DNA from: Microlunatus capsulatus
GTDB lineage: Bacteria > Actinomycetota > Actinomycetes > Propionibacteriales > Propionibacteriaceae
Assembly (NCBI RefSeq): GCF_017876495.1
Contig: NZ_JAGIOB010000001.1
Span: 2,542,001-2,606,000 of the forward strand
DNA: 64,000 nt
Direction: 5' to 3'
The notes under the pieces were generated by a model that was not told where the DNA came from, did no database searches, and was given only the letters and a program-made list of their open reading frames with translations. Shown here one piece after another: positions 10,823 to 41,094 of the stretch (its first letter is position 1; each line of letters opens with the position of its first letter). The position numbers and the translations under genes are program-made.

Positions 10823-10833
10823 CAAGGAGCATC

Positions 10834-11328: not shown

Positions 11329-11387
11329 GCCGTCGGGCGCCGTGGTCCGGGTCGCCGTCGTGGGCCCGGTGCGGCCCGGGAGGCCCT

Positions 11388-11393
11388 TAGGGT
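11388..11393 (+). promoter_or_regulatory. Leaderless -10 element of the DUF2510 gene
   Basis: TAGGGT, then 6 nt, then GTG at 11400. Confidence 0.5.
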
Positions 11394-11399
11394 GGCCGG

Positions 11400-12323: not shown

Positions 12324-12337
12324 GGCCCGCCCGCGGC

Positions 12338-12343
12338 TAGCCT
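12338..12343 (+). promoter_or_regulatory. Leaderless -10 element of pheA
   Basis: TAGCCT, then 6 nt, then GTG at 12350. This spacing favours 12350 over the in-frame GTG at 12344. Confidence 0.5.
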
Positions 12344-12349
12344 GTGCCG

Positions 12350-13279: not shown

Positions 13280-13312
13280 CCCCCGCTCCGCCCCCGCTCT
13301 GGAGCGCTCAGG

Positions 13313-13337
13313 CCTTCGACGAGCTCAGGCAGCGGTG
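13313..13337 (+). repeat. Single copy of the intergenic CCTTCGACGAGCTC element
   Basis: CCTTCGACGAGCTCAGG followed by CAGCGGTG, between convergent pheA and the PAP2-DAGK gene. The same unit occurs as a cluster at 33208-33346. Confidence 0.65.
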
Positions 13338-13343
13338 AGCCGC

Positions 13344-15011: not shown

Positions 15012-15085
15012 GGGCTGATTGTCCCCTGCCCGGTGCCGCCCGCGGCACCGCCGCAACGCAGGTGCTGACGGCGGGGCCGGCTGGA

Positions 15086-15091
15086 TAGGGT
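15086..15091 (+). promoter_or_regulatory. Leaderless -10 element of serS
   Basis: TAGGGT, then 6 nt, then GTG at 15098. Confidence 0.5.
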
Positions 15092-15097
15092 GAGGCG

Positions 15098-16372: not shown

Positions 16373-17187
16373 GCGACGCCGCTGCCCCCGGGCCCGCCGA
16401 CGACGGCTGGCGCCCGCGGCTGGTCGCGCTCGACGTGGACGGCACCGTCGTCGACCGGAACGGCGCCCTGCCCGGCGCGGTGAAGGACGCGATCGCCCTC
16501 GTCGTCGCCGCGGGGGTGCCCGTCGTCCTCTCCACCGGCCGCAGCTGGCACGGCACCCGCGACCTCGTCGACCTGCTGGGCCTGCCGCCCGGCCCCTCGG
16601 TCTGCTCGAACGGCGCGGTCATCGTCACCTACCCGCCGGAGGAGGTCGTCCAGGCCATCACCTTCGACCCGCGCGACGTCATCGACCGGGTGGAGGAGTT
16701 CGCGCCCGGCACGCTGATCGCCGTCGAGGAGGTCGGACGCGGCTACCGGCTCAACGGCCACTTCCCCGACGACGACCTGACCGGCGAGATGGTCATCCAG
16801 GACTCCCAGCAGCTCGGCGCTCAGCCGGTCACCCGGGTCATCCTGCGCGACCCGACGCGCTCGGCGGAGGACTTCATCTCCCTGGCCCAGCACCTCGGGC
16901 TCAACGGGGTGACCTACTTCGTCGGCTGGAGCGCCTGGCTCGACATCGCCCCCGAGGGCGTCAACAAGGCGACGGCGCTGGCCGAGGTGGCCGCCGGGTT
17001 CGGCCTGACCGCCGCCGACGTCATCGCCTTCGGCGACGGCCGCAACGACCTGGAGATGCTCCGCTGGGCCGGCCGCGGCGTCGCCATCGGCGATGCGCCG
17101 CCGGAGGTGCAGCAGGCGGCCGACGTCGTCACCGACACCTTCGCCGACGGCGGCCCGGTCGCCGAGCTCCGCCGCTGGTTCGGCTGA
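16369..17187 (+). CDS. HAD-superfamily hydrolase, Cof type
   Basis: 272 residues. Motif [15 protein letters not shown] holds the nucleophilic Asp and its partner; motif II is STGRSW; motif IV is [17 protein letters not shown] near the C-terminus; a C2-type cap lies between. Cof-type enzymes dephosphorylate sugar phosphates, flavin or pyridoxal phosphates; the substrate here is unknown. The ATG overlaps the serS stop (ATGA), so it is translated from the same message. Confidence 0.9.
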
Positions 17188-17191
17188 GCGC

Positions 17192-18739: not shown

Positions 18740-18786
18740 GGGTCCTCCTCGTCGGGGACCCTCACCGTAGACCGTGCCGCGGGGGC

Positions 18787-19410
18787 TCAGGCGGCGTGCT
18801 GGTGGCCGCGCGGGGCGGGGCGGGTGACGGCGAGGGTGGCCTCGAGGACCTGGCGGCGGCTGGGCCGGACGGCGACGGGCCGGGGAGCGCTGGGCTGGTT
18901 GCGCTCGCGGCGCAGGTGACGCTTCACCGTCGACAGCGAGCAGCCGAGCCGGACGGCGAGGACCTCGAGCGTCTCGTCGGGGTGCGCGGCCCGGACCCGC
19001 AGCACCTCGTCGTGGTCGACGGGCCGGCTGCCGCCCAGCACGCCGGCGAGGGTGTCGAAGTCCTCCGGCTGGACGACGACGCCGAGCCGGCGGCGGATCT
19101 CGACGCGCTGGCGGGCGGTGGTGCCGCCGACGTAGCCGGCGACGTCGTGCTCGACGACCGCGCGGTAGAGGCAGTCGACCACGAGCGGGCAGGACTGGCA
19201 GGCGTCCTGCGCGTCGGCGACGAGGTCGGCGTAGCGGCGGCGGTCCTGCGCCGGGGCGCCCGTGGCGGGCGGCTCCTCCAGCAGCGGGTCCTGGAACACC
19301 CGGGGCGACGAGGCGCAGACGGGTGCGGCGGCGCGGGCGGGGGCGGCGGGAGCGGCGGTGCCCGGGCGGGGGAGCGGGGAGGTGCGGCGAGGGGCGAGCG
19401 TGGTGGTCAT
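18787..19410 (-). CDS. WhiB-family Fe-S regulator with C-terminal helix-turn-helix
   Basis: 207 residues. Four Cys (32, 71, 74, 80; CX38CX2CX5C) and GYVGGTTARQRVEIR match the WhiB cluster and the G-(V/I)-G-G turn. After it, residues 115-165 form an extra HTH-like segment (DEVLRVRAAHPDETLEVLAV, then LGCSLSTVKRHLRR), which standard 80-120-residue WhiB proteins lack. The tail is basic. ATG at 19410 has GGGAG upstream. WhiB proteins bind sigma-A and sense redox or nitric oxide; the added HTH suggests independent DNA contact, which is inference. Confidence 0.82.
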   Translation of the reverse strand: MTTTLAPRRTSPLPRPGTAAPAAPARAAAPVCASSPRVFQDPLLEEPPATGAPAQDRRRYADLVADAQDACQSCPLVVDCLYRAVVEHDVAGYVGGTTARQRVEIRRRLGVVVQPEDFDTLAGVLGGSRPVDHDEVLRVRAAHPDETLEVLAVRLGCSLSTVKRHLRRERNQPSAPRPVAVRPSRRQVLEATLAVTRPAPRGHQHAA

Positions 19411-19497
19411 GGACGGCTCCCGAGGTGTCGTGGTTGTTCGGCCTCGGGTGGGACGGGGTGCCGCGGCGTCCGGTTCCGTCCGCGCGCAGGTTTTCTC

Positions 19498-20631
19498 CTA
19501 GCGCGGCGCGCGGGCGGCGGCGATGGCCCGCACCGCCTTGGAGATCGGGACGGGCGGGCGGCCGGCCAGGATCCGGAACTGGTCGGAGCGGGTGGACCGC
19601 GCGGCGTAGAAGCGCTGCACCAGGGCCGGGTCCAGGCGGTAGAAGCGCTGCAGCACCTGGTAGCGCTCGGTGGGCTCGGCGGCGCCGAACAGCATGGTGT
19701 CGAGCAACCGGTAGAAGCCGCGCTCGCGCCAGGTGCGGGCGGCGTGCTCGTGGGTCAGACGCAGCAGGGCCGGGTGCGAGAGGTCGTCGGCCGCGGCCAC
19801 CAGGCCGGCCAGCCGGATCGCGTCGGGCAGGGAGTAGCCGGTGGTGGGGTGGAACAGGCCGGCCCGCATGCCCGCCTTGGCCAGCTCGATGCCGGTCGAG
19901 GCCCAGTAGCGCTCGAAGTCCCCGCTGACGACGACGGGCAGCACGCCGCTCTCGGTGCGGCTGGTGCGCTCGACCGGCCAGCCCTTCGCCGCGGCGTACG
20001 CCGCGATCCGGCGCTGCAGGTCGCGGACGTCGAGGTCGGGGGAGTCGCTGTAGTAGGTGTCCTCGACGAACAGCTCGTGCGGCCCGAACGGCAGCAGGTA
20101 GACGAACCGGTAGCCGTCGCGCTGCTCCACCGTCGCGTCCATGACGACCGGGTGGGCGACGCCGTGCGGCGCGGTGGTGTGCAGGACCTGGCCGACGAAC
20201 TTCTGGTAGCCGAGCCGCAGCAGGCCGAGGTCGCCGGGCCCCCGGGCGTCCAGCACGGCGCCGGTGCGCAGGGTCCGGCCGTCGTGCAGCCGGACCCGGT
20301 CGGGCCGGGCCTCGGCGACCCGGCCGCGGACGACGGCGCCCGCCGGCAGCCGGGCGTGCACGACCTCGGCCAGCCGCTCGGAGGTGATGCTGCGGTACGG
20401 CGCGTGCAGCTCGCGGGCGAAGCCGGGGAAGGAGACGTCGTAGGCGTCCCAGCGGTGGCTGATCAGCGGCTCGACGAGCCACTCGTCCCCGTCGTCGACG
20501 TCGGCGGCGAAGTGCGACCAGACGTGGTTGCCGCCGACCCGGTCCTGCTCGACGACGGCCAGCCGCAGGTCCGGGTGCCGGGCGGCCACCGCGAGCGCGA
20601 CCAGCCCGCCCGCCAGGCCGCCGCCCAGCAC
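19498..20631 (-). CDS. crtY: Lycopene beta-cyclase (CrtY type), start uncertain
   Basis: Flavoprotein that cyclises the ends of lycopene in carotenoid synthesis. 377 residues from GTG 20631. Seen: LGGGLAGGLVAL (FAD Rossmann turn), VVEQDRVGGNHVWSHF, LLPFGPHELFVEDTYYSD and GLFHPTTGYSLPDAIRLAG, all characteristic of CrtY. The GTG start cuts into the first beta strand; the reading frame upstream reads EVDLAV in frame, which completes it, but no ATG, GTG or TTG exists between there and the preceding stop region. A rare start or a small sequence error is possible. No other carotenoid genes are in the window. Confidence 0.85.
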   Translation of the reverse strand: MLGGGLAGGLVALAVAARHPDLRLAVVEQDRVGGNHVWSHFAADVDDGDEWLVEPLISHRWDAYDVSFPGFARELHAPYRSITSERLAEVVHARLPAGAVVRGRVAEARPDRVRLHDGRTLRTGAVLDARGPGDLGLLRLGYQKFVGQVLHTTAPHGVAHPVVMDATVEQRDGYRFVYLLPFGPHELFVEDTYYSDSPDLDVRDLQRRIAAYAAAKGWPVERTSRTESGVLPVVVSGDFERYWASTGIELAKAGMRAGLFHPTTGYSLPDAIRLAGLVAAADDLSHPALLRLTHEHAARTWRERGFYRLLDTMLFGAAEPTERYQVLQRFYRLDPALVQRFYAARSTRSDQFRILAGRPPVPISKAVRAIAAARAPR

Positions 20632-20683
20632 GGCGAGGTCGACCTCGCGGTCCTCGTGCCCGTCCTCCCCGCGGCGCTCGGGG

Positions 20684-21283
20684 TCAGAGATACATGCCCC
20701 CGCTGCCGCCCCCGGCCGGTCCCTCGGGGCCGACCGGTCCGCGACCCGCGGGCAGGGCGCGGCGCATCTGCTCCAGCTGGGCGCGCGCGGCCATCTGCTG
20801 GGCGAACAGCGCGGTCTGGATGCCGTGGAAGAGGCCCTCGAGCCAGCCGACCAGCTGCGCCTGGGCGATCCGGAGCTCGGCCTCGGTCGGGGTCTCCTCG
20901 GCGCTGAAGGGCAGCGCGATCCGGTCCAGCTCCTCCACGAGCTCGGGCGCGAGGCCCTCCTTGAGTTCGGCGATGGACGCCGTGTGGATGGTGGCCAGGC
21001 GCGAGCGGCTGGCCTCGTCCAGCGGCGCGGCCTTCACCTCGTCGAGCAGCTGGCGGATCATGTTGCCGATCCGCATCACCTTGGCGGGCTGCTCCACCAT
21101 GTCGGTCACCGACGTGGGCGAGTGCTCGGCCGGGGCGCCGGCGCGCTCCGCCGGCGGGCCCTCGACGGCCATCGCCTGGGGCGTCACGACGAAGACGCGG
21201 CCGTCCTCGGTGGCCCCCGCCACGGCCTGCCCGCCCGGTCCGCCGTCGCCGTCCTGGCCGTCCTCGCTCTGCTGGCTGGTCAT
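20684..21283 (-). CDS. bpa: Bacterial proteasome activator (Bpa/PafE)
   Basis: 199 residues. The central helical region (VTDMVEQPAKVMRIGNMIRQ to about residue 170) is the four-helix-bundle core of the Bpa family, which forms a dodecameric ring that opens the 20S proteasome without ATP. The extreme C-terminus, GGMYL, is an HbYX-like motif whose Tyr is next to last, as needed for docking into the proteasome alpha ring; a flexible Gly/Pro linker precedes it. A TAGGAT hexamer lies 6 nt before the ATG. The proteasome genes themselves are not in this window. Confidence 0.9.
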   Translation of the reverse strand: MTSQQSEDGQDGDGGPGGQAVAGATEDGRVFVVTPQAMAVEGPPAERAGAPAEHSPTSVTDMVEQPAKVMRIGNMIRQLLDEVKAAPLDEASRSRLATIHTASIAELKEGLAPELVEELDRIALPFSAEETPTEAELRIAQAQLVGWLEGLFHGIQTALFAQQMAARAQLEQMRRALPAGRGPVGPEGPAGGGSGGMYL

Positions 21284-21289
21284 GGGTCG

Positions 21290-21295
21290 ATCCTA
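21290..21295 (-). promoter_or_regulatory. Leaderless -10 element of bpa
   Basis: On the minus strand TAGGAT, then 6 nt, then ATG at 21283. Confidence 0.5.
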
Positions 21296-21392
21296 GGTGC
21301 GGCCGCTGACAGCGCGGCGGCCACCCGGAGCCCGCGCGGCCGCGCGAAACCGGGTGGAGACTGTCAGGGGCGCACCCTAGGCTGAGCCGGTC

Positions 21393-26874: not shown

Positions 26875-27401
26875 ACCGCACGTCGTCCCTGGCCGACCGC
26901 TGGCGCCGCTCCTGGTACCTCGAGCGGGTGGAGCTGTGGCTGGACCCGATGCCGCGCCGCCGTCGCCGCGCCGTCCTCGGCGAGCTGCGGGCCAACCTCG
27001 ACGAGGCGACGGCCGACGTCGGTCTCGCCCGGGCCCTCGCGGACCTCGGCGCCCCGCGCGAGCTCGCCCGCACCTACCTCGACGCCGAGCCGGCCGACCG
27101 GCCGCGCTGGCACCAGGGCGCCGTCGCCGCGGCCCTGCTGCTGGCGGCCTGGGTCTACGCGACCTTCTTCTACGCGGTCGGGATGCTCGACGCGCTCACC
27201 GCCACCGGCACGACGGCCCCGGCCCGCGGCAGCTTCCTGGGCACCCGGGTGGAGGCCGTGTCCAGCCCGGCCGAGCTCTCCGCGGCCTTCAGCGGGGTGC
27301 CCTGGCTGCCGCTGCTGGCCGTGCTGGTGGTGTTCCTCCTGGTCGGGCGCGCCTGGCGCGTCCTGCCCCGCCGGTCGCGGGTGGCGGTCAGCGCCCCCTG
27401 A
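26871..27401 (+). CDS. HAAS/DUF1700-like membrane protein partnered with PadR
   Basis: 176 residues. The soluble N-terminal 75 residues (WLDPMPRRRRRAVLGELRAN, then LADLGAPRELARTYL) match the helical HAAS/DUF1700 signalling domain. Two membrane helices follow, around residues 83-103 and 143-162, with a loop between. Family members are co-encoded with PadR and thought to signal envelope state to it. The 3' end overlaps selB on the other strand by 14 bp. Confidence 0.75.
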   Translation: MNRTSSLADRWRRSWYLERVELWLDPMPRRRRRAVLGELRANLDEATADVGLARALADLGAPRELARTYLDAEPADRPRWHQGAVAAALLLAAWVYATFFYAVGMLDALTATGTTAPARGSFLGTRVEAVSSPAELSAAFSGVPWLPLLAVLVVFLLVGRAWRVLPRRSRVAVSAP

Positions 27402-29178
27402 CGCGGCGGAGCTGGCCGTCCACCCGGACGGTCCAGCCGCGCCGGTCGAGGTGCTCCAGCAGCGGGACGGCCACCCGGCGGGTGGTGCCCAGCGCCTGCC
27501 GGGCCCCGCTGAGCGTGAAGGGCTGCTCCAGGCCGGACAGGACGCGCATCGCCCGCGCCGGGCCGGCCGGCAGCAGCACGACGTCGGGTGTCAGCCGGAC
27601 CACCCGACCCACCCGCTCGGCGGCCGCCAGCTCGGCCACGCCGAGACCCCAGCGCTCCAGGTCGCCCTTCTCGGGGGCGAGGAACGGCTCGGCCTCGAGG
27701 TGGGCGACCAGCCGGGCCAGCCCCGCCTCGGCCGGGCCCAGGTCGTCACCGGTGCCCGGCCGGGCGAGCCGGCCGTCGACGTGCTCCAGCCCGGCGGCCG
27801 CGGCGAGGGCGACCAGCAGCTCCCGGTCCGGCACGTCGAGGGCCCGCCGGGCCGCCTCGACGGCCAGCCGAGGGTCCAGCGGGTGCGCGCCCGCGTGCGC
27901 GTCGACGGCCGTCGTCAGGTCCCGCTGCCAGCGCTCCCAGACGGCCGGGTCGACGAGCCAGTCGCCGCTGGCCCGGACGTGGCTGAGATCGTCGACCGGG
28001 ATCCCGAGGGCGAGCAGCTCGGCTCGGCGGACGGCGCCCCGGCGCTGCACCTGCGCGGCCAGCTGGGCGGCGGGGTCGGCCGTGGCGGCCCGCTCCAGCG
28101 CCACAGCCCGGGCGGCGGCCGCCCCCCGGCGGCGCAGGGCGGGCGGGTCGGCGTCGAGGACCAGCGCCCCCGCGGCGACGGCGTGCCGTCCCGGGTCGCG
28201 GAGCACCAGCCGGTCGCCCGGCTCCAGCGGCAGCGGTGCCGGCAGGGTCAGCCGGGCCGTGCTGCCGCCCAGCGGCCGGACCCGGACGGGCACGGCAGCG
28301 GTGCCGGCGTGCAGGACCAGCTCGGCGGGCAGGTCGGCGACCGCGCCGGCGGCCGGGGCCAGCCGGACGTCGACGGCGCCGGTGGTCGGCCAGGCGTCGG
28401 GGGTGAGCAGGGCGTCGCCCCGGCCGACCTCGTCGACCTCGACGCCGCGCAGGTTCACCGCGACCCGGGCGACGGCTCCGACGGCGTCGGCCGGTTCGCC
28501 GAGGCTCTGCAGGCCGCGGACCCGGACCCGGCGCCCGCCCAGCTGCAGCGTGTCGCCGACGGCCAGCCGGCCGGCCCCGAGCGTCCCGGTGACCACGGTG
28601 CCCGCGCCGCGGATGGTGAAGGAGCGGTCGACCCACAGCCGGACCCGGCCGTCGGTGCGCGGCGCGGGCAGGCCGGCGACCAGGTCGGCGAGCGCGGAGC
28701 GCAGCCGCGGCAGGCCCGCGCCGGTCCGGCCGGAGACGGCGACGGCGGGCACCCGGCCGAGGCTGGACGCGGCGAGGTGGTCGAGGGCCTCCGCCGTCGC
28801 GGCGGCCGGGTCGGCGAGGTCGGAGCGGGTGACGACGAGCAGCCCCGCGGTCAGCCCCAGGGCGTCGACGGCGGCCAGGTGCTCACCGGACTGGCGCCGC
28901 CAGCCCTCGTCGGCGGCGACGACGAAGAGCACCGCGGGCGCCGGGCCGAGCCCGGCGAGCATGGTGCCGATGAAGCGCTCGTGGCCCGGGACGTCGACGA
29001 AGGCCAGCGTCCGGTCCGCCCCGGGCGGGCCGTCGAGGCTGGTCCAGGCGTAGCCGAGGTCGATGGTCATCCCGCGGCGCTGCTCCTCGGCGAAGCGGTC
29101 GGGCTCCATCCCGGTCAGGGCGCGGACCAGCGTCGACTTGCCGTGGTCGACGTGCCCCGCGGTGGCGACGACGTGCAC
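27388..29178 (-). CDS. selB: Selenocysteine-specific elongation factor SelB
   Basis: Carries Sec-tRNA-Sec to ribosomes stalled at a UGA marked by a SECIS hairpin. 596 residues. GTPase G1 is TAGHVDHGKSTLVRALTG, G3 is VDVPGHERFIGTML, G4 is VTRSDLADP. EF-Tu-like domains II and III follow, then the C-terminal winged-helix repeats that bind the SECIS RNA (about residues 340-596; for example RRVAVPLLEHLDRRGWTVR at the end). GTG at 29178 immediately follows the selA stop with no gap. Its likely client is the UGA-containing formate dehydrogenase at 36982-40416. Confidence 0.95.
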   Translation of the reverse strand: MHVVATAGHVDHGKSTLVRALTGMEPDRFAEEQRRGMTIDLGYAWTSLDGPPGADRTLAFVDVPGHERFIGTMLAGLGPAPAVLFVVAADEGWRRQSGEHLAAVDALGLTAGLLVVTRSDLADPAAATAEALDHLAASSLGRVPAVAVSGRTGAGLPRLRSALADLVAGLPAPRTDGRVRLWVDRSFTIRGAGTVVTGTLGAGRLAVGDTLQLGGRRVRVRGLQSLGEPADAVGAVARVAVNLRGVEVDEVGRGDALLTPDAWPTTGAVDVRLAPAAGAVADLPAELVLHAGTAAVPVRVRPLGGSTARLTLPAPLPLEPGDRLVLRDPGRHAVAAGALVLDADPPALRRRGAAAARAVALERAATADPAAQLAAQVQRRGAVRRAELLALGIPVDDLSHVRASGDWLVDPAVWERWQRDLTTAVDAHAGAHPLDPRLAVEAARRALDVPDRELLVALAAAAGLEHVDGRLARPGTGDDLGPAEAGLARLVAHLEAEPFLAPEKGDLERWGLGVAELAAAERVGRVVRLTPDVVLLPAGPARAMRVLSGLEQPFTLSGARQALGTTRRVAVPLLEHLDRRGWTVRVDGQLRRVRGR

Positions 29179-30510
29179 TCAGCCCTCGTCCCGCGCGGGC
29201 GCGGCGCCCGCGGCGGCGGCCCGGACGGCGGCGAGCAGCCAGGGGTCGTCGTCGGCCGGCACGCAGCGCAGGTCCAGCAGGCAGCGGCCGCGCTCCACCC
29301 GGCCGACGACGGCGGGCCGGCCGGTCCGCAGCGCGGCGGCGTAGTCCTCGGGCAGGGCGACGGCCCAGCCGGGCAGCTCCAGCCCGGGCGCTCCGCCGCC
29401 GCCGACGGCTCCGGCCGAGGCCACCACCGCGGCCGCGACGCCGCCCTCGGCCAGCGCCGTCGCCAGGGCCGCGGCGCGGGCGCGCAGCTGGTCGGGGTCG
29501 GCGCGGAGGGCGGCCCAGGTCGGCGTGACCGGTCCCCGGAGCGTCGCCTCCAGCGCGGCCAGGGTGAGCTTGTCGACCCGCAGCGCGCGGGCCAGCGGGT
29601 GCCGGCGGAGCCGCTCGACGACGTCGGCACGACCCAGCAGCAGGCCGGCCTGCGGCCCGCCGAGGAGCTTGTCGCCGCTCGCGGTGACCACGTCGGCGCC
29701 CGCGCGCAGGGCGGTGGCGGCGTCGGGTTCCTCGGGCAGCAGCGGGTCGGGGGCCAGCAGGCCGCTGCCGATGTCGACGACGACCGGCACGCCCAGGCTG
29801 GCGAGCTCGGCCACCGACGCGGCGGAGGTGAAGCCCTCGACGCGGAAGTTGCTGGGGTGCACCTTGAGGATGCAGCCGGTCGCGGGGCCGAGCGCAGCGG
29901 CGTAGTCGGCCGCCGTCGTCCGGTTCGTCGTCCCCACCTCCCGCAGCACGGCCCCGGTGGAGGCGATGAGGTCGGGCAGCCGGAAGCCGTCGCCGATCTC
30001 CACCATCTCGCCCCGGCTGATGACCACCTCGCGGCCGGCGGCCAGCGCCGTCGTGGCCAGTACGAGCGCGGCGGCGCCGTTGTTCACGGCCAGCACCCCG
30101 CCGGCGTCCGGGACGGCGGCGGCGAGGGCCTCCAGGGCACCGCGACCCCGGCGGGCCCGGCGGCCGGTGGCGAGATCGAACTCGACGTCGGCGTAGCCGG
30201 CCGCGTCGGCGACGGCGGCCACCGCGGCGCCGGACAGCGGGGCGCGCCCCAGGTTGGTGTGCAGGACGACGCCGGTGGCGTTGAGCACGGCCGCCGTGCT
30301 GTGCAGGGTGCGGGGCAGGGCCGCGACGGCGGCGTCGGCCACGTCCTCGGGCGCCAGCTCGCCGGCGCGGGCGCGGGCCTGGGCGGCCACCACCTGCTGC
30401 TTGACGGCGTCGCGGCCCAGCCGCTCCGCCGCCGCGACCAGCCGCGGGTCGGCCAGCACGGCGTCGGTCCGGGGCACCCGCCGCCGGGGGTCCGTCTCCG
30501 CCGTCGTCAC
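29179..30510 (-). CDS. selA: L-seryl-tRNA(Sec) selenium transferase SelA
   Basis: PLP enzyme converting Ser-tRNA-Sec to Sec-tRNA-Sec with selenophosphate. 443 residues. The PLP-binding Lys is in TASGDKLLGGPQAG, about residue 280; NATGVVLHTNLGRAPLS, VNNGAAALVL and SRGEMVEIGDGFRLPD are family motifs. GTG at 30510 has TAGGAT 7 nt upstream and no ribosome site. tRNA-Sec lies 78 bp upstream on the same strand and selB follows directly. Confidence 0.95.
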   Translation of the reverse strand: MTTAETDPRRRVPRTDAVLADPRLVAAAERLGRDAVKQQVVAAQARARAGELAPEDVADAAVAALPRTLHSTAAVLNATGVVLHTNLGRAPLSGAAVAAVADAAGYADVEFDLATGRRARRGRGALEALAAAVPDAGGVLAVNNGAAALVLATTALAAGREVVISRGEMVEIGDGFRLPDLIASTGAVLREVGTTNRTTAADYAAALGPATGCILKVHPSNFRVEGFTSAASVAELASLGVPVVVDIGSGLLAPDPLLPEEPDAATALRAGADVVTASGDKLLGGPQAGLLLGRADVVERLRRHPLARALRVDKLTLAALEATLRGPVTPTWAALRADPDQLRARAAALATALAEGGVAAAVVASAGAVGGGGAPGLELPGWAVALPEDYAAALRTGRPAVVGRVERGRCLLDLRCVPADDDPWLLAAVRAAAAGAAPARDEG

Positions 30511-30588: not shown

Positions 30589-30684
30589 TGGCGGAGGCGG
30601 ACGGGAATCGAACCCGCCAAGCCGAGATGCTCGACTTCACCGGTTTTGAAGACCGGGAGGGCCACCAGGCACCTGTACGCCTCC
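30589..30684 (-). tRNA. selC: tRNA-Sec (anticodon UCA)
   Basis: A 96-nt tRNA including an encoded CCA. The acceptor stem is GGAGGCG / CGCCTCC with G discriminator, the anticodon loop is CTTCAAA within GGT...ACC (anticodon TCA), the variable arm is long (GTCGAGCATCTCGGC) and the T-loop is GGTTCGATTCC. The extra length and UCA anticodon identify it as selenocysteine tRNA rather than tRNA-Ser. On the minus strand a TACGCT -10 (30692-30697) ends 7 nt before its 5' end. selA and selB lie downstream. Confidence 0.95.
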
Positions 30685-30720: not shown

Positions 30721-31716
30721 ATGAGCTCCGCGACCCAGCAGACGTACCGGTTGACCCAGTACGCCCACGGCGGCGGCTGCGCCTGCAAGATCCCGCCCGG
30801 CGAGCTGGAGGAGACGCTGGCCGGGCTCACGCCGTGGACCTCGCCCGACCTCGTCGTCGGCCTCGAGACGGGGGACGACGCGGCCGTCGTGCGGATCGAG
30901 GGCGGCCGCGCGGTGGTCAGCACCACCGACTTCTTCACCGCCGTCGTCGACGACGCCTACGACTTCGGCCGGATCGCCGCCGCCAACGCGCTGTCCGACA
31001 TCTACGCCATGGGCGCCACCCCGCTGGTCGCGCTCAACCTCGTCGGCTGGCCGCGCGACGTGCTGCCGATGGAGCTGCTGGGCGAGGTGCTGCGGGGTGG
31101 GATGGACGTCTGCCGCGAGGCGCAGGTGCACCTGGCCGGCGGGCAGAGCATCGACGACCCCGAGCCCAAGTACGGGATGGCCGTGACCGGCCTGGCCGAC
31201 CCCGACCGGCTGCTGCGCAACGACGCCGCGGTGGCGGGGCTGCCCGTCAGCCTCACCAAGCCGCTGGGCATCGGCGTCCTCAACAACCGGCACAAGGCCA
31301 CCGGCGAGGTGTTCCCCGAGGCGGTCGCGACGATGACCCGGCTCAACCGGGCCGCGTCGGAGGCCGCGCTGGCCGCCGGCGTCCGGGCCGCGACCGACGT
31401 CACCGGCTTCGGGCTGCTCGGCCACGCCTACAAGATGGCGCGCGCGTCCGGGGTGACGATCCGGCTCGACGCCGCGGCCGTCCCCTACCTCGACGGCGCC
31501 CGGCAGGCCCTGGCCGACGGCTTCGTCAGCGGCGGCACCCGGCGCAACCTGGACTGGGTCCGCCCGTTCCTCGACGCCGGGGTCGACGAGGACGAGCTGC
31601 TGCTGCTGGCCGACGCGCAGACCAGCGGCGGCCTGCTCGTCGTCGGCGAGGTGCCCGGCGCCCCCGTCGTCGGCGAGGTGCTGGCCGCGGGCCCGCACCC
31701 GCTGGTCGTCCGCTGA
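30721..31716 (+). CDS. selD: Selenophosphate synthase SelD (Cys form)
   Basis: Makes selenophosphate, the selenium donor for SelA, from selenide and ATP. 331 residues. The active site is HGGGCACKIPPGEL, with Cys20 and Lys23 at the positions equivalent to E. coli Cys17/Lys20; it is a Cys, not a Sec, enzyme. VGLETGDDAAVVRI and DFFTAVVDDAYDFGRIAAAN hold the Mg-ATP-binding Asp residues. ATG at 30721 is leaderless by its -10 spacing. It diverges from tRNA-Sec. Confidence 0.96.
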   Translation: MSSATQQTYRLTQYAHGGGCACKIPPGELEETLAGLTPWTSPDLVVGLETGDDAAVVRIEGGRAVVSTTDFFTAVVDDAYDFGRIAAANALSDIYAMGATPLVALNLVGWPRDVLPMELLGEVLRGGMDVCREAQVHLAGGQSIDDPEPKYGMAVTGLADPDRLLRNDAAVAGLPVSLTKPLGIGVLNNRHKATGEVFPEAVATMTRLNRAASEAALAAGVRAATDVTGFGLLGHAYKMARASGVTIRLDAAAVPYLDGARQALADGFVSGGTRRNLDWVRPFLDAGVDEDELLLLADAQTSGGLLVVGEVPGAPVVGEVLAAGPHPLVVR

Positions 31717-33207: not shown

Positions 33208-33346
33208 CGTTCCCGGAGCTCGTCGAAGGGCCCTTCGCCAGGCTCAGGGAGCGGTGCCCTTCGCCAGGCTCATGGCGCGGTGCAGTGCAGTGCAGGCTCA
33301 AGGGCCCTTCGACGAGCCCAGGGAGCGGTGGGCTCAGCGAGCGGTG
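33208..33346 (+). repeat. Cluster of 26-bp CCCTTCG...GAGCGGTG intergenic repeats
   Basis: At least four related units: an inverted copy at 33208-33230 (CCGTTCCCGGAGCTCGTCGAAGGG), then direct copies at 33231-33256 and 33257-33282 (CCCTTCGCCAGGCTCA...GCGGTG) and 33305-33330 (CCCTTCGACGAGCCCA...GCGGTG), plus a partial GGCTCAGCGAGCGGTG at 33331-33346 that enters the end of the MFS gene. The first two are head to head and can pair. The same element stands alone at 13313. Probably a mobile palindromic (REP/MITE-like) element that also ends convergent transcripts. Confidence 0.75.
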
Positions 33347-34632
33347 CCGAGACTGCCCTCAGCGGCGTCGGTCCGCGTGCGGGGGAGCCGGGTGACCAGC
33401 GGCAGCACGATGGCGACCAGGGCGATGATGCCGATGGTCGTGTAGGCCGTCGTGTAGTCCTTGTCCTCGCCGATCAGGGCGGCGGCGATCAGCGGTCCGA
33501 CGACGCCGCCGAGGCTCCAGCCGATGAGCATCAGGCCGTAGATGCCGCCCGCGTTCTTCACCCCGAAGAAGTCGCCGGCCGTGGCGGGCATGGTGCCGAA
33601 GGCGCCGCCGTAGCAGAGGTAGACCACCGCGCAGAGGACGAAGAACAGGACGGCGTTCTGCACGTGCGGGATGAGCAGCAGGCAGACGCCCTCCAGGGCC
33701 AGGATGGCGACGAAGGTGGGCATCCGGCCGAGCCGCCCGGAGACGGCCGCCCAGACGATCCGGCCGGCCCCGTTGAACAGCCCGAGGAAGCCGACGGCGC
33801 TGGCGGCCGCGACCGCCGTGTAGCCGGAGATGTCGGTGAAGCTGGCCGCGGCCTGGGAGATGAAGGAGATCCCGGCCAGCACGGCGAGGGTGAGGATCGC
33901 CGCCAGCGAGTACCACTGCCAGGTCTTGAGGGCCTCGCCCTGGGTGTAGTCCCGTCCGCTGTCGACGACCTTGCCCGTGGTCGCCGGCACGTAGCCCGGG
34001 ACCTCGTAGCCCTGCGGCGGGTCCCGGAAGAGCAGGGCGCCGGCCACCGAGAACACCAGGTAGGCGATCCCCAGCGGCAGGAAGGCCGCGGTCGGCTCGT
34101 CCGGGTTCCCGCGGACCAGGACCTGCGCGATCGGCGCGGTGACGACGGCGCCGAAGCCGAAGCCGCCGACGGCGAGGCCGGTGATGAGACCGCGCTTGTC
34201 GGGGAACCACTTCTGCAGCATGGCGATGGGCACGATGTAGGCCAGCCCCAGCCCGAAGCCGGCCAGGACGCCGTAGCCGACGACGAGCAGCCACAGCTGG
34301 TCGGAGCTGCGCGCGAACGAGGCGACGATGACGCCGAGCCCGTAGACCACCGCCCCGATGACGGCGACGGTGCGCGGCCCGCGGCGGTCCTGGATGCGGC
34401 CGCCGAGGAAGGTCCCGATGAAGATCATGCCGATCGCCACCTCGAACGGGACGGTGGCCTCGGGCTTGCTCAGCTGCCAGGGCTCGGCCTTCTGCAGCGC
34501 GGAGCTGAAGACGCTCCACGCGTAGACGGCGCCCAGCGAGAGCTGCAGCAGCAGGGCGGCGACGACCAGGCCCCACCGACCCTTCGTCGGGTTGCTCCCA
34601 GTGCTGGTCCTCGCGGCGGTGGTGCTGCTCAT
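33334..34632 (-). CDS. MFS transporter, OFA (oxalate/formate antiporter-like) family
   Basis: 432 residues with 12 predicted membrane helices. GRWGLVVAALLLQLSLGAVYAWSVF at the start and GLGLAYIVPIAMLQKWFPDKRG in the loop after helix 4 are typical of OFA carriers (partly quoted). It follows the formate dehydrogenase subunits with a 1-nt overlap (TGATG), so it is translated in the same operon; uptake or exchange of formate or a related carboxylate is the natural inference, not shown by sequence. The stop codon lies inside the repeat cluster at 33208-33346. Confidence 0.88.
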   Translation of the reverse strand: MSSTTAARTSTGSNPTKGRWGLVVAALLLQLSLGAVYAWSVFSSALQKAEPWQLSKPEATVPFEVAIGMIFIGTFLGGRIQDRRGPRTVAVIGAVVYGLGVIVASFARSSDQLWLLVVGYGVLAGFGLGLAYIVPIAMLQKWFPDKRGLITGLAVGGFGFGAVVTAPIAQVLVRGNPDEPTAAFLPLGIAYLVFSVAGALLFRDPPQGYEVPGYVPATTGKVVDSGRDYTQGEALKTWQWYSLAAILTLAVLAGISFISQAAASFTDISGYTAVAAASAVGFLGLFNGAGRIVWAAVSGRLGRMPTFVAILALEGVCLLLIPHVQNAVLFFVLCAVVYLCYGGAFGTMPATAGDFFGVKNAGGIYGLMLIGWSLGGVVGPLIAAALIGEDKDYTTAYTTIGIIALVAIVLPLVTRLPRTRTDAAEGSLGTAR

Positions 34633-35861
34633 CAGGTCTCCTGGGCCGGTGGGGACGCCTCGCCCGTCGGGGGCTGGCCGGCGGCGGCCTCGGCCGCCCG
34701 GCGCCGGTTCAGCCGCTCCCGCTGGGGGACGATCGTGTACTTGGGGTCGTGCACCGAGGCGGGCCCGGCCTCGAAGACGCCGAACCGCGTGCAGGCCGAG
34801 CCGGCCAGCAGGGCGAGCCCGGACAGGGCGGCGCCGACGCGGCTGCGCCGGCCGACGAGCAGGGTGCCCAGGGCACCGGCGGCGGTGAGGGCCTTGCTGG
34901 CCCGCATCAGCCGACCCGGGGTGCCCGCGTGCAGCACCTCGGCCGAGAGGCCCATCGAGCGCTCCATCCGGTGCTCGACGGCCAGCTCGGCCGCCGCGCC
35001 GGCGACGGCGAACAGCCGGGCCGGGCCGGCCTCGTGGACGGGGGCGAGCAGCATGCCGAGCCCGCCCGAGGCCGCGGCCGCGGAGCCGACGAAGACGAAC
35101 GGCAGCTCGCGGTGGGCGTCGTGCCACGCGGGCGTCGAGGTGTTGGTCAGCAGGACCGCGGTGTAGGAGGCGACGCCGGGGGCGATCGCAGCCGCGGCCA
35201 GCCCGGCGGGGCGGGCGGCCCAGTCGAGCAGGGTGCTGAGGACCCCGAACCGGACCGGCAGCAGCTTCGCCACCTCGGCGGCCCCGGCGACGACCGCGCC
35301 CGGCCCGTAGGCGGTGAGGATCCAGGTGCCGACCGACATCGGTGAGGTGGGCTTGAACACCCGCAGCATGTTGAGGAAGCGCTCGGGCCGGCCGAGGTCG
35401 GCCACCAGGGCGGCGAGGCTGATGGTGATGGCGCCGGTGGCCCCGATCCGGGCGCCGCGGCGCAGGGCGGGTCGACCGGTCAGGTCGGCGCCGGCGGCCA
35501 GCAGCGACGAGCCGCCGGCGATGCCGCCCATGAAGAGGTAGAGCGGGATCGCCGCCTCCCACGGGGCGGCCTTGACGACGGGACGGCCGTAGTAGGAGGT
35601 GAAGGTCGCGTCGGGGACCATCTGCTCCTCGGCGCGCCGGCGCTTGCGCCGCCCACCGCGCCCGCCGCGCCCGTCCCCACGGCCCTCGGAGCGGCCCCCG
35701 CCGGCGGTGCGCTGGGCGGTGGCCGCCGCGCTGCCGCCGCCCTGGGTGCCGGGGATGGCGCCGATGTCGTCGGTGGTGTTCTTCGGGCCGGCCTCGTTGA
35801 TGTCGGGGTTGGCGGCCTTCCCGACCTCCTGCTGGCCGCGCTCGTAGCCGCCCTCGGTCAC
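34632..35861 (-). CDS. nrfD: NrfD/PsrC-like membrane subunit of formate dehydrogenase
   Basis: 409 residues. A soluble, Gly/Arg-rich N-terminal part of about 90 residues (RSEGRGDGRGGRGGRRKRRR) precedes a conserved segment TFTSYYGRPVVKAAPWEAAI and 8-9 membrane helices of the NrfD fold, including YLFMGGIAGGSSLLA and DLGRPERFLNMLRVFKP. NrfD subunits pass electrons between an Fe-S partner and quinone. GTG at 35861 overlaps the beta-subunit stop (GTGA), which fixes the start. C-terminal residues 360-409 are hydrophilic. Confidence 0.88.
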   Translation of the reverse strand: MTEGGYERGQQEVGKAANPDINEAGPKNTTDDIGAIPGTQGGGSAAATAQRTAGGGRSEGRGDGRGGRGGRRKRRRAEEQMVPDATFTSYYGRPVVKAAPWEAAIPLYLFMGGIAGGSSLLAAGADLTGRPALRRGARIGATGAITISLAALVADLGRPERFLNMLRVFKPTSPMSVGTWILTAYGPGAVVAGAAEVAKLLPVRFGVLSTLLDWAARPAGLAAAAIAPGVASYTAVLLTNTSTPAWHDAHRELPFVFVGSAAAASGGLGMLLAPVHEAGPARLFAVAGAAAELAVEHRMERSMGLSAEVLHAGTPGRLMRASKALTAAGALGTLLVGRRSRVGAALSGLALLAGSACTRFGVFEAGPASVHDPKYTIVPQRERLNRRRAAEAAAGQPPTGEASPPAQET

Positions 35862-36985
35862 CGCCGGCCCCCGAGGAAGGCGGCGGCCGCGGCCGCCAGC
35901 AGGCCCGCGGCGGCGAGCCCCGCGTGCTTCCACATCCGGGGCAGGTCGGCGGTGGTGACGATCGGGTCGGGCGGGAAGCCGTAGACCTCCGGCTCGTCGA
36001 GCAGCAGGAAGAACGCCCCGGCCCCGCCGACCCCGCCCTCGGGGTCCTCGGCGTAGAGCTGCGCGCCCATGACGCCCGCGGCCTGGAGGTCGGCCACCCG
36101 CTTCTCGGCGCGCTCGCGGAGCTCGTCGACGTCGCCGAACTGGATCGACTGCGTCGGGCAGGCCTTGGCGCACGCCGGGGTCAGGTCGTCCAGCAGCCGG
36201 TCGTAGCAGAGCGTGCACTTCTGGGCTACGCCGGCGTTCTTCGTCACGGGCTTGTCGGAGTGGCCGACCAGCGGCGCCTTCTGGCCGATCCGGCGGTCGA
36301 TGACGCCGAAGGGGCAGCCGGCGACGCAGTAGCCGCAGCCGTTGCAGATGTCGTCCTGGACGACGACGGTGCCGAACTCGGTGCGGAACAGCGCGCCGGT
36401 CGGGCAGACGTCGAGGCAGCCGGCGTTGGTGCAGTGCTTGCAGACGTTGGACGCCATCAGCCAGCGGAACTCGGTCCGCTCCCCGGCGTCGGGGGAGGCG
36501 CTGGGCAGGTCGAACGCGGGCATCCCCAGGTCGACGAGGGGCTTGTCGTGCACCGAGCGGGCCATCGACCCCAGGATGTCCTCGCTGACCAGGACGTCCG
36601 GGCCGACGGCGGTCTCGGGCACCCCGATGGTGATGCCGGTGTCGAGGCCGGCCATCGGCGTGCGCTGCTCGATGAACTCGACGTGGCGCCAGGTGTTCGC
36701 CCCCAGTGCCCCGGTGTTGTCGTAGGAGCTGCCGAGCAGCTCGTAGATGCCGTCCTGCGGCACCCCGTTCCACTCCTTGCAGGCCACCTCGCAGGCCTTG
36801 CAGCCGATGCAGATCGAGGTGTCGGTGAAGAAGCCCTTGCGCGACGGCGGCGCCTCCCAGCCGGCGTGCGCCGCCGGTCCCGCCGGGCCGGCGGAGGTGA
36901 ACGCCTGGTCCAGGCCCAGGTGGCCGTCACCCGCGTCGACGCGGGCGTGGCCGCCGCCCTGGTGCGCCGGGTCGCCGTGGGTCAT
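35858..36985 (-). CDS. fdhB: Formate dehydrogenase iron-sulfur (beta) subunit
   Basis: 375 residues carrying four [4Fe-4S] cluster motifs: CIGCKACEVACKEW near residue 59, CKHCTNAGCLDVCP near 185, CNGCGYCVAGCPFG near 217 and CTLCYDRL...CAKACP near 260. It relays electrons from the alpha subunit. One hydrophobic C-terminal helix (AGLAAAGLLAAAAAAFLGG) can anchor it to the membrane, as in FdnH-type proteins. The ATG overlaps the alpha-subunit stop (ATGA). The His/Gly-rich first 40 residues are specific to this lineage. Confidence 0.94.
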   Translation of the reverse strand: MTHGDPAHQGGGHARVDAGDGHLGLDQAFTSAGPAGPAAHAGWEAPPSRKGFFTDTSICIGCKACEVACKEWNGVPQDGIYELLGSSYDNTGALGANTWRHVEFIEQRTPMAGLDTGITIGVPETAVGPDVLVSEDILGSMARSVHDKPLVDLGMPAFDLPSASPDAGERTEFRWLMASNVCKHCTNAGCLDVCPTGALFRTEFGTVVVQDDICNGCGYCVAGCPFGVIDRRIGQKAPLVGHSDKPVTKNAGVAQKCTLCYDRLLDDLTPACAKACPTQSIQFGDVDELRERAEKRVADLQAAGVMGAQLYAEDPEGGVGGAGAFFLLLDEPEVYGFPPDPIVTTADLPRMWKHAGLAAAGLLAAAAAAFLGGRR

Positions 36986-39900
36986 GAGGTGCCTCCGTCA
37001 GGTCCTGCGTCGGTGTCCCGGCCGGCGGGGGCGTGCCCCTCGCCGACCTGGCCCTGGGTCGAGTGCCCGAGGCTGCCCGCGTCGCTGGGGTGCCGGCCGT
37101 CGGGGCCCTCGGGGGGCGTGCGCTGCTGGTTGCCGGTGGCCACCGTGACGTGCGCCCGCTCGCGGTGCGCGGCCACGTAGTCCAGCAGGGCGGGGCCGCG
37201 GGGACGCCGGCCCGGCTGGATGTCGCACGAGGCGACCTTGGTCTCCTGGATGTGCACGTTGGCGTCCAAGGTCACCCCGAACAGGTCGTTGGCCGAGTCG
37301 CCGCTGACCAGGGCGTCGTTCCCGACCCCCCAGTGGTACGGCAGGCCGATCTGGTGCACGGTGCGGCCGGCGACCCGCAGCGGGGCCATCCGCTCGGTGA
37401 CCATCACCCGGGCCTCGATCGCGGTCCGGGCGCTGATGATCGTCGCCCAGCCGTTGTTCTCCAGGCCGCGCTCGCGGGCCAGCTCGGGCGAGACCTCGCA
37501 GAAGAACTCGGGCTGCAGCTCGGCCAGCACCGACTGCCAGCGGCTCATCCCGCCGGCGGTGTGGTGCTCGGTCAGCCGGTAGGTGGTGAACACGTAGGGG
37601 TAGAGCTCGGCGCCCGGCTCGTCGCCCGAGGGGTTCTGCAGGTTGTCCTCCCGCGGGAAGACCTCCCGCGTCGGGTTGGACTGCTGCCGCGACATCGGGT
37701 TGCTGACCGGGGACTCCTGCGGCTCGTAGTGCACCGGCAGCGGGCCGTCGAGCAGCCCGGCCGGCGCGTAGAGCCAGCCCTTCCCGTCCGCCTGCATGAT
37801 GAAGGGGTCGTCACCGGCCAGGCCGGCGGGTCCGGAGGCGCCCTCCTCGGGCCGGTAGGACGGCGCCTTGCCCACCTCGAAGTCGGGGACGTCGTGCCCG
37901 GTCCACTTCTGCTGCTCCTCGTCCCACCAGACCAGCGCCTTGCGCTCGCTCCAGGGCTTGCCGTCGGGGTCGGCAGCGGCCCGGTTGTAGAGGACGCGGC
38001 GGTTCATCGGCCACGCCCAGCCCCACTCGGGCGCCACCCAGGACTGCTCGCGCCCGGGCTTGCGCCGGGCGGCCTGGTTGACGCCGTCGGCGTAGACGCC
38101 GGTGTAGATCCAGCAGCCGCCGCTGGTCGAGCCGTCGGGCTGCATCTCGTTGAACGTGTTGAGCGGCTGGCCCGCCTTCTCCCCGGTGAGGAAGGAGCCG
38201 TTGATCTCGCGCAGCACCGCCTCCGGGTCGATCTCCCCGTCCTCGAGCAGCGGGTAGTCCCAGGTGAGGTCCAGCACGGGCCGGTCGCGGGGGTCGTCGG
38301 AGCCCGCGAGCCGCTGGCGCACCTTCTGGCCGAGCTTGTAGAAGAACTCGAGGTCGCTCTGGCAGTCCCCGGGCGGGCTGACCGCCTTGTGGTGCCACTG
38401 CAGCATCCGGTGGGTCTGGGTGAACGTGCCGCCCTTCTCCACGTGCGCCGCGGCGGGGAAGAAGAACACCTCGGTGTCGATGTCCTCGGTGCGCAGCTCG
38501 CCCGTCTCGATCTCGGGGGCGTCCTTCCAGAACGTCGCCGACTCGATCATGTTGAGGTCGCGGACCACCAGCCACTTGAGGTGGGACAGGCCCATCCGCT
38601 GCATCTTGCCGTGGGCCGAGCCGACGGCCGGGTTCTGGCCCAGCAGGAAGTAGCCGTCGATCTCGTCGCGCAGCATCGACATGACGGTGGCGTAGGTGCC
38701 GTGGTCGCCGGTGAGCTTGGGCAGGTACTGGAAGGCGAAGTCGTTCTCCGCCGTCGCCGCGTCACCCCACCAGGCCTTGAGCAGGTTGACCGAGTAGCTC
38801 TTCGCGTTGGTCCAGAAGCCCTTCTGGTCGGGGCTCGCGATCTCCTTGACGTACTCGTCGAGGGAGTCGTGCTCGCCCGCCTTCGGCATCGGCAGGTAGC
38901 CCGGCAGCAGGTTGAACAGCGTCGGGATGTCGGTCGAGCCCTGGATGCTCGCGTGCCCGCGGAGCGCCATGATGCCGCCGCCGGGGCGGCCCATGTTGCC
39001 GAGCAGCAGCTGGATGATCGCCGAGGTCCGGATCATCTGGACGCCGACGGTGTGGTGTGTCCAGCCCACCGAGTACACCCAGCAGGTGGTGCGGTCGCGG
39101 CCGCTGTTGGCCGTCACCGCCTCGCAGACCTCGAGGAACTGCTCGGGGCTGATGCCGCAGGTCTCCTGCACCATCTCCGGGGTGTAGCGGGCGTAGTGCC
39201 GCTTGAGCACCTGGAACACCGACCGCGGGTGCTGCAGCGTCTCGTCGCGCTGGATCTCGGAGTGGTCGAGCGCGGCCCCGTGCCCGCCGAGCTCGTGGCC
39301 GGCGCCGCGGCTGGACTCGCTCTCCTCGTCCTCGTCGCCCGAGCCCTCGGCCCCGCTCCCGGGGTCGGAGGCCGGACCGCCGCCGGCCGAGTGCTCGGCC
39401 ATGCCCTCGTAGGCCCAGCTGGAGGTGTCGTACGTGCCGGTCTCGGGGTCGTAGCCGGAGAAGACGCCGTCGAGCTCGTCGACGTCGCGGAAGTCCTCGC
39501 TCACCAGCATCGGGGCGTTGGTGTAGCGGCGGACGTACTCGTCGAAGTACTTCTCGTTGCCGAGGATGTAGTTGACCACCGCGCCGAGGAAGACGATGTC
39601 GCTGCCGGCCCGGATGGGCAGGTGCGCGTCGGCGACCGCGGACGTCCGGGTGAACCGGGGGTCGATGTGGATGACCTTGGCGCCGCGCGCCTTGGCCTCC
39701 ATCACCCACTGGAACCCGACCGGGTGGCACTCGGCCATGTTCGAGCCCTGGATGACGATGCAGTCAGAGTTCTGCAGGTCCTGCAGGAAGCCGGTGGCAC
39801 CGCCACGGCCGAACGAGGCTCCCAGACTGGGAACCGTGGCACTGTGTCAAATACGGGCCTGGTTCTCGATCTGGATGGCGCCCATCGCGGTGAAGAGCTT

Positions 39901-40416
39901 CTTGATCAGGTAGTTCTCTTCGTTGTCCAGGGTGGCCCCGCCGAGCGCCGCGAAGCCCATGGTGCGGCGGAGGGGGCGGCCCTCCTCGTCGGTGTCCTGC
40001 CAGTGCCGGCGGCGCGAGGCGACGACGCGGTCCGCGATCATGTCGGTCGCTTGCTCGACGCCGATCTTCTCCCAGGTGGTGCTGCCGGGGCGCCGGTACA
40101 GCATCGTCGTGGCGCGGCCGGCCGAGTTGACCAGCTGCTCGCTGGCCGAGCCCTTGGGGCACAGCCGCCCGCGGGAGACGGGGGAGTCCGGGTCGCCCTC
40201 GATCTGCACGACGCGCTCGTCCTTGACGTACACCTTCTGCCCGCAGCCGACGGCGCAGTAGGGGCAGATGCTCTGCACGACGCGGTCTGCGGTCCGGGTG
40301 CGCGGCGCCAGGTCGCGCGTGCGCTGCGACTGCACGGCGGAGCCCCGACCCAGCGGGTCCTTGCCCGTGAGCTGCCGGAGCACCGGCCACTCGAGGAACG
40401 TCTTGCGGATGTCCAT
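36982..40416 (-). CDS. fdhA: Selenocysteine-containing formate dehydrogenase alpha subunit (UGA = Sec190)
   Basis: 1144 residues if the in-frame TGA at 39847-39849 is read as selenocysteine. Translation on both sides is continuous in one frame: IQIENQARI-Sec-HSATVPSLGASFGRGGA, the conserved Sec site of molybdenum/tungsten formate dehydrogenases. The N-terminal [4Fe-4S] motif is Cys51, 54, 58, 86. A low-complexity acidic insert (about residues 345-390) precedes the second molybdopterin-binding region. ATG at 40416 has GGGAGG 5 nt upstream. No twin-arginine signal is present, so the catalytic side may be cytoplasmic. Oxidises formate to CO2 or runs the reverse. Confidence 0.95.
39817..39849 (-). 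promoter_or_regulatory. Bacterial SECIS element and UGA selenocysteine codon
   Basis: On the minus strand UGA is followed by 11 nt and then an 8-bp hairpin, GGUUCCCA / UGGGAGCC, with a small GUC loop (39817-39835). The 11-nt spacing, the GGUU foot and the GU of the apical loop match what I recall of E. coli fdhF, where SelB binds. It is the signal that lets SelB decode this UGA. Confidence 0.88.
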
Positions 40417-40563
40417 CTCGCCTCCCAGGTGCACCATAACCCCGCCCGTCCCTGCTGAAACGGCGGGCGGGTCGAGCGTGCCGAGCAGCGGGCCGGCGGC
40501 TGCCTCCGGGAGCCCCGACGGCCTTGGCAGGATGGGCGCACATCGACCAGGAGGAGGCCGTCC

Positions 40564-40713
40564 GTGGCTGACAAGAAGGGCAAGGGCAGCGACACCGCCA
40601 AGAAGGCGAACGCGAAGGCCTCGAAGGAGGGCAAGAAGAACCCGCGCACCTCCTCGGCCGCACAGGCCGAGCTGGGCAAGAAGGGCGGCGGGAGCAAGAA
40701 GAAGAAGAAGTAG
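40564..40713 (+). CDS. Small Lys-rich protein (49 residues)
   Basis: GTG start with an AGGAGGAGG ribosome site 8 nt upstream. The product (MADKKGKGSDTAKKANAKAS, later GKKNPRTSSAAQAELGKKGG and a KKKKK tail) is about one-third Lys and has no hydrophobic core, so it is probably disordered and nucleic-acid or ribosome binding. No family recognised. The strong ribosome site and a clean stop argue for a real gene. Confidence 0.55.
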   Translation: MADKKGKGSDTAKKANAKASKEGKKNPRTSSAAQAELGKKGGGSKKKKK

Positions 40714-40842
40714 GTCCGGGCTCCCGCGACATGCGGGTCGGGCCGGTGCGGGTCCCCGGTCGCGGGAGGCGGCGTGGGGCCCGGAGGCGGCCGTGGCACC
40801 CTGGTGCGGCGCTCCCGCCCGGGAGCCGCAGGAGGGGGCGCC

Positions 40843-41094
40843 GTGCTGATCTTCGGACTGAGCACCAAGCAGGTGCTGCTGGCGACGCTGTTCTACGTGT
40901 GCGACGTCTGCGGCAACCAGGCCGCGCACCAGCTGATCAAGCGCACGCGGCGGTTCACGCTGTTCTTCATCCCGCTGTTCCCGGTGGGCACCCGCTACCT
41001 GGACACCTGCACCTACTGCGCGCGGACCCTCGACGTCCCGCGCGACCGGGCCGAGGCCGCCGTCGCCGCCCAGGGCTCGCCCGAGCTGCGCTGA
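40843..41094 (+). CDS. Small zinc-ribbon protein
   Basis: 83 residues. GTG at 40843 is chosen because GGAGGGGG stands directly upstream; longer in-frame starts add only Arg/Gly-rich sequence. Two CXXC pairs (CDVCG near residue 19 and CTYC near residue 56) form a zinc ribbon; between them is a hydrophobic segment FTLFFIPLFPVGTRYL typical of the zinc-ribbon 15-type family found near electron-transfer or membrane proteins. Function unknown. Confidence 0.75.
   Translation: MLIFGLSTKQVLLATLFYVCDVCGNQAAHQLIKRTRRFTLFFIPLFPVGTRYLDTCTYCARTLDVPRDRAEAAVAAQGSPELR

Follow-up and report, generated by a model that had tools for sequence, protein, structure and literature searches.

A gene resembling the catalytic subunit of formate dehydrogenase (fdhA) in Microlunatus capsulatus carries an in-frame TGA at codon 190, and this locus raises the question of whether that codon ends the protein or is read as selenocysteine (Sec). 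We analyzed the gene within a stretch of 64,000 nucleotides (hereafter the window; contig NZ_JAGIOB010000001.1, positions 2,542,001 to 2,606,000) and compared it with related loci and genomes. Given the conserved TGA sites of its relatives, the covarying hairpin that follows them and the co-occurrence of fdhA with the Sec-specific tRNA (tRNA-Sec), the UGA is most likely read as Sec. We assign a probability of about 97% to the reading, predicted from sequence, in which codon 190 of a formate dehydrogenase containing molybdenum or tungsten is decoded as Sec through a SelB-bound hairpin, with electrons leaving by way of FdhB and an NrfD-type subunit.

Reading frame and protein family of fdhA

The frame of fdhA runs on the minus strand from an ATG at 40414-40416 to a TGA at 36982-36984. 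When TGA is translated as U, codon 190 is the sole internal TGA and there are zero TAA or TAG codons inside the gene, which confirms the continuous frame, now measured at 1144 residues, that an earlier note on this DNA had claimed around codon 190. The GC content at third codon positions (GC3) is 0.968 in the 189 codons ahead of the UGA and 0.980 past it, so both parts of the gene look equally coding. A plain list of open reading frames (ORFs) made with translation table 11 gives two ORFs here, 39847-40929 (360 amino acids) and 36982-39738 (918 amino acids), as the same note had foreseen for simple gene callers. That expectation does not hold for two public plasmid records, Tsukamurella tyrosinosolvens plasmid 17 and Arthrobacter sp. 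YA7-1 plasmid pYA7-1a, where the homologous coding sequence is already annotated through the UGA. Since a naive ORF list would break fdhA in two, codon 190 should be read through when the M. capsulatus genome is annotated.

The pair of ORFs is what favors the view that the gene has decayed and that its TGA is a true stop, be it as a pseudogene or through an unlucky mutation or a sequencing error. The equally high GC3 on both sides of the codon speaks against this, as does the existence of relatives that are full-length and contain one or two TGA codons.

At the protein level, FdhA passed the cut-offs of two curated families, the NCBIfam model NF041513 formate_DH_Act (kind 'exception'; 1953.7 bits, cut-off 1400, profile positions 2-1067 of 1067) and TIGR01553, formate dehydrogenase-N alpha (974.3 bits, cut-off 814.2), and it contains the Pfam domains Molybdop_Fe4S4, Molybdopterin and Molydop_binding. 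The match to NF041513 extends along the whole profile and no tested feature differs, although FdhA is longer than the profile (1144 against 1067 residues) and has an acidic Gly/Ser/Glu-rich stretch at about residues 338-387 that is missing in its PDB relatives. In the PDB, 47 distinct chain sequences match FdhA with E no higher than 0.001, led by 1h0h_A (E = 8.2e-218), 1kqf_A and 9qm0_A, the last of which is named selenocysteine-containing. Residue 190 aligns to X in 1h0h_A and 1kqf_A, which we take to be Sec acting as a ligand of Mo or W, and to C in 9qm0_A. The UGA falls on the Sec position of formate dehydrogenases with solved structures, which supports the family-conserved Sec context proposed earlier. 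The gene is a further instance of a well-known bacterial family and not a new one, because a dedicated NCBIfam model exists, similar clusters are in print and the two plasmid records are annotated through the stop. It is a clean case of UGA recoding that leaves knowledge of selenocysteine unchanged.

The hairpin downstream of codon 190

A hairpin of eight base pairs, GGUUCCCA-GUC-UGGGAGCC, begins 11 nt past the UGA and forms part of the minimum-energy structure, in agreement with the stem, spacing and GU-containing loop described in the earlier note. The likeness to Escherichia coli fdhF that the note drew was likewise accurate: in the K-12 record the UGA of fdhF is codon 140, followed by 11 nt and then by GGTTGCAGGTCTGCACC. 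In fdnG of the same strain the UGA is codon 196, and 11 nt again separate it from a hairpin-opening GGT, as in fdhF. We take the hairpins of fdhF and fdnG to be their selenocysteine insertion sequences (SECIS). All three genes share the order of UGA, 11 nt and a hairpin with a G-U loop, fdnG (PDB 1kqf_A) being the closer homolog of the window gene. The stem sequence of the E. coli elements differs from that of the window, and R1, our own model built from 80 sites, does not find them. R1 gives 64.6 bits at 39805-39849 in the window, a sequence that is among those from which it was built.

Conservation was assessed in a set of 103 loci (L001, L003-L022 and L032-L113), which include the two plasmids and the best 80 of 583 confirmed contig matches; the weakly matching L002 and L023-L031, from other molybdoenzymes, had been excluded beforehand. 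Two fragments that stop short of the site (L020, L021) were dropped, leaving 101 sites, our own included. As the set was drawn from the best 80 of 583 matches it leans toward close relatives, and cysteine (Cys) forms may be commoner among more distant ones. The codon at the site is TGA in 97 of the 101, TAG in three and TGC in one, with the frame going on past it; close homologs without a residue here, which the earlier note had named as counter-evidence, did not appear. A TGA conserved in the same place in so many relatives, followed by an open frame, is difficult to reconcile with a true stop.

The seven inner pairs of the hairpin form at the same spacing in 99 of the 101 sites, all eight pairs in 66, and the first two loop bases are GU in 100. 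We then considered covariation in alignment A3, a gap-free alignment of the 80 distinct 45-mers found among the 101 sites, our own included. In these rows 95.8% of the cells are paired, compared with 92.5% in shuffles, and 30 cells have changed on both sides, compared with 10.8; for both measures 0 of 500 shuffles were as high. As a control, shifting the partner by 1-3 columns reduced pairing to 27.8-67.0%. Individual sites illustrate the exchanges: in Corynebacterium pollutisoli (L090) a C-G pair has become U-A via CCT and CTA codons, and one Blastococcus (L112) has a G-C pair where U-A is usual. In Brevibacterium jeotgali (L082), a small exception among the TGA sites, one inner pair is broken (U-U). 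This covariation also argues against a decayed gene.

The sites with other codons bear on a second alternative, in which the UGA is suppressed by a near-cognate tRNA (placing Trp, Cys or Arg at residue 190) or separates two polypeptides, the hairpin having some other role. Nothing directly favors it, beyond the existence of the short downstream ORF with an ATG (36982-39738). The TAG sites belong to Modestobacter sp. VKM Ac-2985 (L064) and two Blastococcus (L112, L113), each at 10556-10558, and in all three the eight pairs and the loop GU are kept; tRNA-Sec was not found within those three loci. Sec encoded by UAG, together with a tRNA-Sec bearing a CUA anticodon, has been reported in Geodermatophilaceae (PMC5330540). 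The Cys (TGC) site, in Actinoalloteichus caeruleus (L111:10547-10591), lacks two of the inner pairs as well as the loop U, and is the only site without the loop GU; sel genes are absent within its 23-kb locus, and a Sec-to-Cys change is likely. Because the TAG sites keep the pairs and the Cys site loses two, the hairpin goes with Sec rather than with UGA itself, which is at odds with ordinary suppression. The three hairpin-keeping TAG sites and the single hairpin-damaged Cys site are therefore useful natural controls.

Selenocysteine genes in related genomes and in the window

We searched 97 family genomes, our own included, for FdhA, with a best E < 1e-150 scored as positive, and for tRNA-Sec at E up to 1e-8. 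FdhA is present in 21 of the 97, and tRNA-Sec was found in 19 of these 21 versus none of the 76 others (Fisher p = 3e-18, a value to be read with the genomes being related and not independent). For gene order we used the 56 loci that are 22,000 bases or longer, where an FdhB-like protein and NrfD each occur in 54, a SelA-like protein and SelB each in 44, SelD in 48, tRNA-Sec in 45 and the transporter in eight; at least one of selA, selB, selD or tRNA-Sec lies in 48 of them.

Within the window, selA, selB, selD and tRNA-Sec are all at most 12 kb from fdhA (Table 1), with SelA, SelB and SelD above curated cut-offs and selC (Rfam match at 30593-30684) being the only match to tRNA-Sec in the genome above the Rfam cut-off. 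Such a complete Sec machinery close by is unexpected if the TGA were a true stop, and its co-occurrence with fdhA does not fit suppression by another tRNA or two separate products, nor does the alignment of residue 190 to the position of the metal ligand in solved enzymes. A true stop is rejected on the conserved TGA with its open frame, the even GC3, the covarying hairpin and the Sec genes, and we give it practically no credence. Ordinary suppression and two separate proteins, rejected on the co-occurring Sec genes and a hairpin that tracks Sec, are very improbable. Very probably, then, fdhA is a real selenium-containing formate dehydrogenase gene standing beside its Sec-decoding genes.

Table 1. 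Features of the fdh and sel region (positions in the window)
Feature	Position	Strand	Basis
fdhA, formate dehydrogenase alpha (catalytic) subunit, 1144 residues, Sec at 190 predicted	36982..40416	-	NCBIfam, Pfam, translation with TGA as U
In-frame UGA, codon 190, putative Sec	39847..39849	-	Frame, PDB alignment, TGA in 97/101 sites
SECIS hairpin, 8 bp, loop GUC, 11 nt past UGA	39817..39835	-	Fold, covariation, site counts
fdhB, iron-sulfur (ferredoxin-type) subunit	35858..36985	-	Pfam Fer4_11, 70.9 bits
fdhC, NrfD-type membrane subunit	34632..35861	-	Pfam NrfD, 56.2 bits, cut-off 25.8 (searched with part 34635-35531)
Major facilitator superfamily (MFS) transporter, monocarboxylate / oxalate-formate type	33334..34632	-	NF049980 SfMCT (L-lactate MFS transporter), 407 bits, cut-off 320
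selD, selenide, water dikinase, no internal stops	30721..31716	+	TIGR00476, 396.5 bits, cut-off 125
selC, tRNA-Sec, anticodon UCA	30589..30684	-	ARAGORN; Rfam RF01852, 79.2 bits, gathering score 47
selA, L-seryl-tRNA(Sec) selenium transferase	29179..30510	-	TIGR00474, 415.9 bits, cut-off 267.9
selB, selenocysteine-specific elongation factor	27388..29178	-	TIGR00475, 263.4 bits, cut-off 242.25; C-terminal Pfam SelB-wing_3

Several results weigh against a Sec-decoding role for this locus. The folding energy of the hairpin region is ordinary (z = -0.30 for a 60-nt stretch, of which 78 of 200 shuffled versions fold at least as well), and the outermost pair of the hairpin is absent in 24 of the 80 distinct sites. 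A loose search matched Rfam SECIS_3 at 39796-39852 (E = 2.1e-6) with 35.6 bits, below the gathering score of 63, and no SECIS is found in the window at the Rfam gathering threshold. It is the comparison among sites, with pairs conserved at the same spacing and covarying, and not the folding energy, that places the hairpin beyond chance. Codon choice is similarly equivocal: A/T-ending codons make up 4 of 12 in codons 191-202 versus 21 of 1131 elsewhere in fdhA (binomial p = 5e-5), but another 12-codon stretch at the far C-terminus also has four, so this signal is weak by itself. Two genomes with FdhA gave no tRNA-Sec, G062 being 59% complete and G045 consisting of 470 contigs with a fragment of the gene. 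Sel genes are missing beside fdhA in eight of the 56 long loci, among them all three TAG loci and the Cys locus. Finally, FdhB scores 164.1 bits against TIGR01582 (FDH-beta), under the cut-off of 334.7; by Pfam it is a four-cluster-type ferredoxin protein.

As for the other genes of the region, the ATG of fdhB overlaps the stop of fdhA (ATGA), and the start of fdhC is uncertain, the candidates being a GTG at 35861, which overlaps the fdhB stop, and an ATG near 35621. The start of the MFS transporter was taken from its ORF translation; against TIGR00890, the oxalate/formate family, this protein (searched with 33337-34614) scores 225.9 bits, below the cut-off of 374.85. Between the fdh and sel genes lie an Fpg/Nei-type DNA glycosylase and a gene of the MSMEG_6728 family, with no evident link, and a homolog of FdhD is present elsewhere in the genome. 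The N-terminal stretch GGGCACK of SelD, presumably its Sec/Cys site, carries Cys and not Sec. A genome search for more SECIS elements with R1 gave one strong match, that of fdhA, followed by one with E = 0.326 and 18.7 bits; given that R1 also misses the E. coli SECIS, this search does not show fdhA to be the only selenoprotein. An internal stop was absent in all five matches to AhpC-type proteins of the genome.

Among the relatives, fdhA of L022 (G068:C1:336947-338569) matches only residues 5-338, 356-420 and 1031-1109, as if a large inner part had been lost, and tRNA-Sec is still in that genome. Two further matches, distant and FdhA-like (32% and 37%), contain one internal TGA each and occur at G087:C111:4953-5657 and G028:C1:2105726-2106523; tRNA-Sec was not found in G087 at E up to 1e-8.

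Proposed mechanism and comparable systems

In the mechanism that we propose, SelA and SelD would make Sec on serine-charged tRNA-Sec, and SelB would bring the Sec-tRNA to the ribosome and bind the hairpin just past the UGA, so that the codon is decoded as Sec and translation proceeds. Residue 190 would then be the metal ligand of a molybdenum or tungsten enzyme, and electrons from formate would pass through FdhA, the iron-sulfur subunit FdhB and the NrfD-type membrane subunit, probably to quinone. The frame, the homology, the conserved hairpin and the presence of selA, selB, selC and selD are observed directly; Sec insertion, catalytic direction, electron acceptor, metal and membrane side are all inferred in this scheme.

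E. coli FdnG has a twin-arginine export signal and a periplasmic active site, and fdnI differs in kind from NrfD. By eye, a twin arginine was not seen in the first 27 residues of FdhA nor at the start of a nine-sequence consensus, so that formate may be oxidized inside the cell, unlike in the exported E. coli formate dehydrogenase-N. A/T-ending codons of fdhA extend over codons 188 to 206, a hint that the recoding signal possibly reaches past the 19-nt hairpin. A cytoplasm-facing, NrfD-anchored selenoenzyme that oxidizes formate inside and delivers electrons to quinone, with a recoding signal slightly larger than the hairpin, is a tentative proposal to which we give somewhat less than even odds.

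Comparable systems have been described. Bacterial selenoproteomes surveyed previously each contained FdhA or SelD (PMC1794560). Actinomycetospora chiangmaiensis DSM 45062 is reported to have three Sec-containing formate dehydrogenase systems, with selenite-dependent removal of formate; its FDH1 comprises a membrane-bound Sec-containing FdhA (1078 amino acids), FdhB, FdhC, a permease, SelA and SelB, with a SECIS identified by bSECISearch (PMC7176365). The window likewise has fdhA, fdhB, fdhC, a transporter, selA and selB, whereas its selD, which adjoins tRNA-Sec, has no counterpart among the genes listed for FDH1. In Corynebacterium aurimucosum ATCC 700975, fdnG (with an internal UGA), fdxH, selABD and selC are reported in one region (PMC2830990). 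Clustering of the UGA-containing gene with sel genes and tRNA-Sec is common to both, but the glycosylase, the MSMEG_6728-family gene and the transporter between the fdh and sel genes set the window apart from the region as described there.

The two plasmids share with the window fdhA, a 4Fe-4S gene, nrfD, selD, selA, selB and tRNA-Sec, and such a self-contained plasmid-borne set could carry Sec decoding into a new host. Their sets are compact, whereas that of the window lies on a 4.4-Mb single-contig genome. The complete set of fdhABC, selD, tRNA-Sec, selA and selB occupies 9788-19661 in pYA7-1a (L033) and 11788-21340 in Tsukamurella plasmid 17 (L032), and one of the two plasmids is typed as conjugative.

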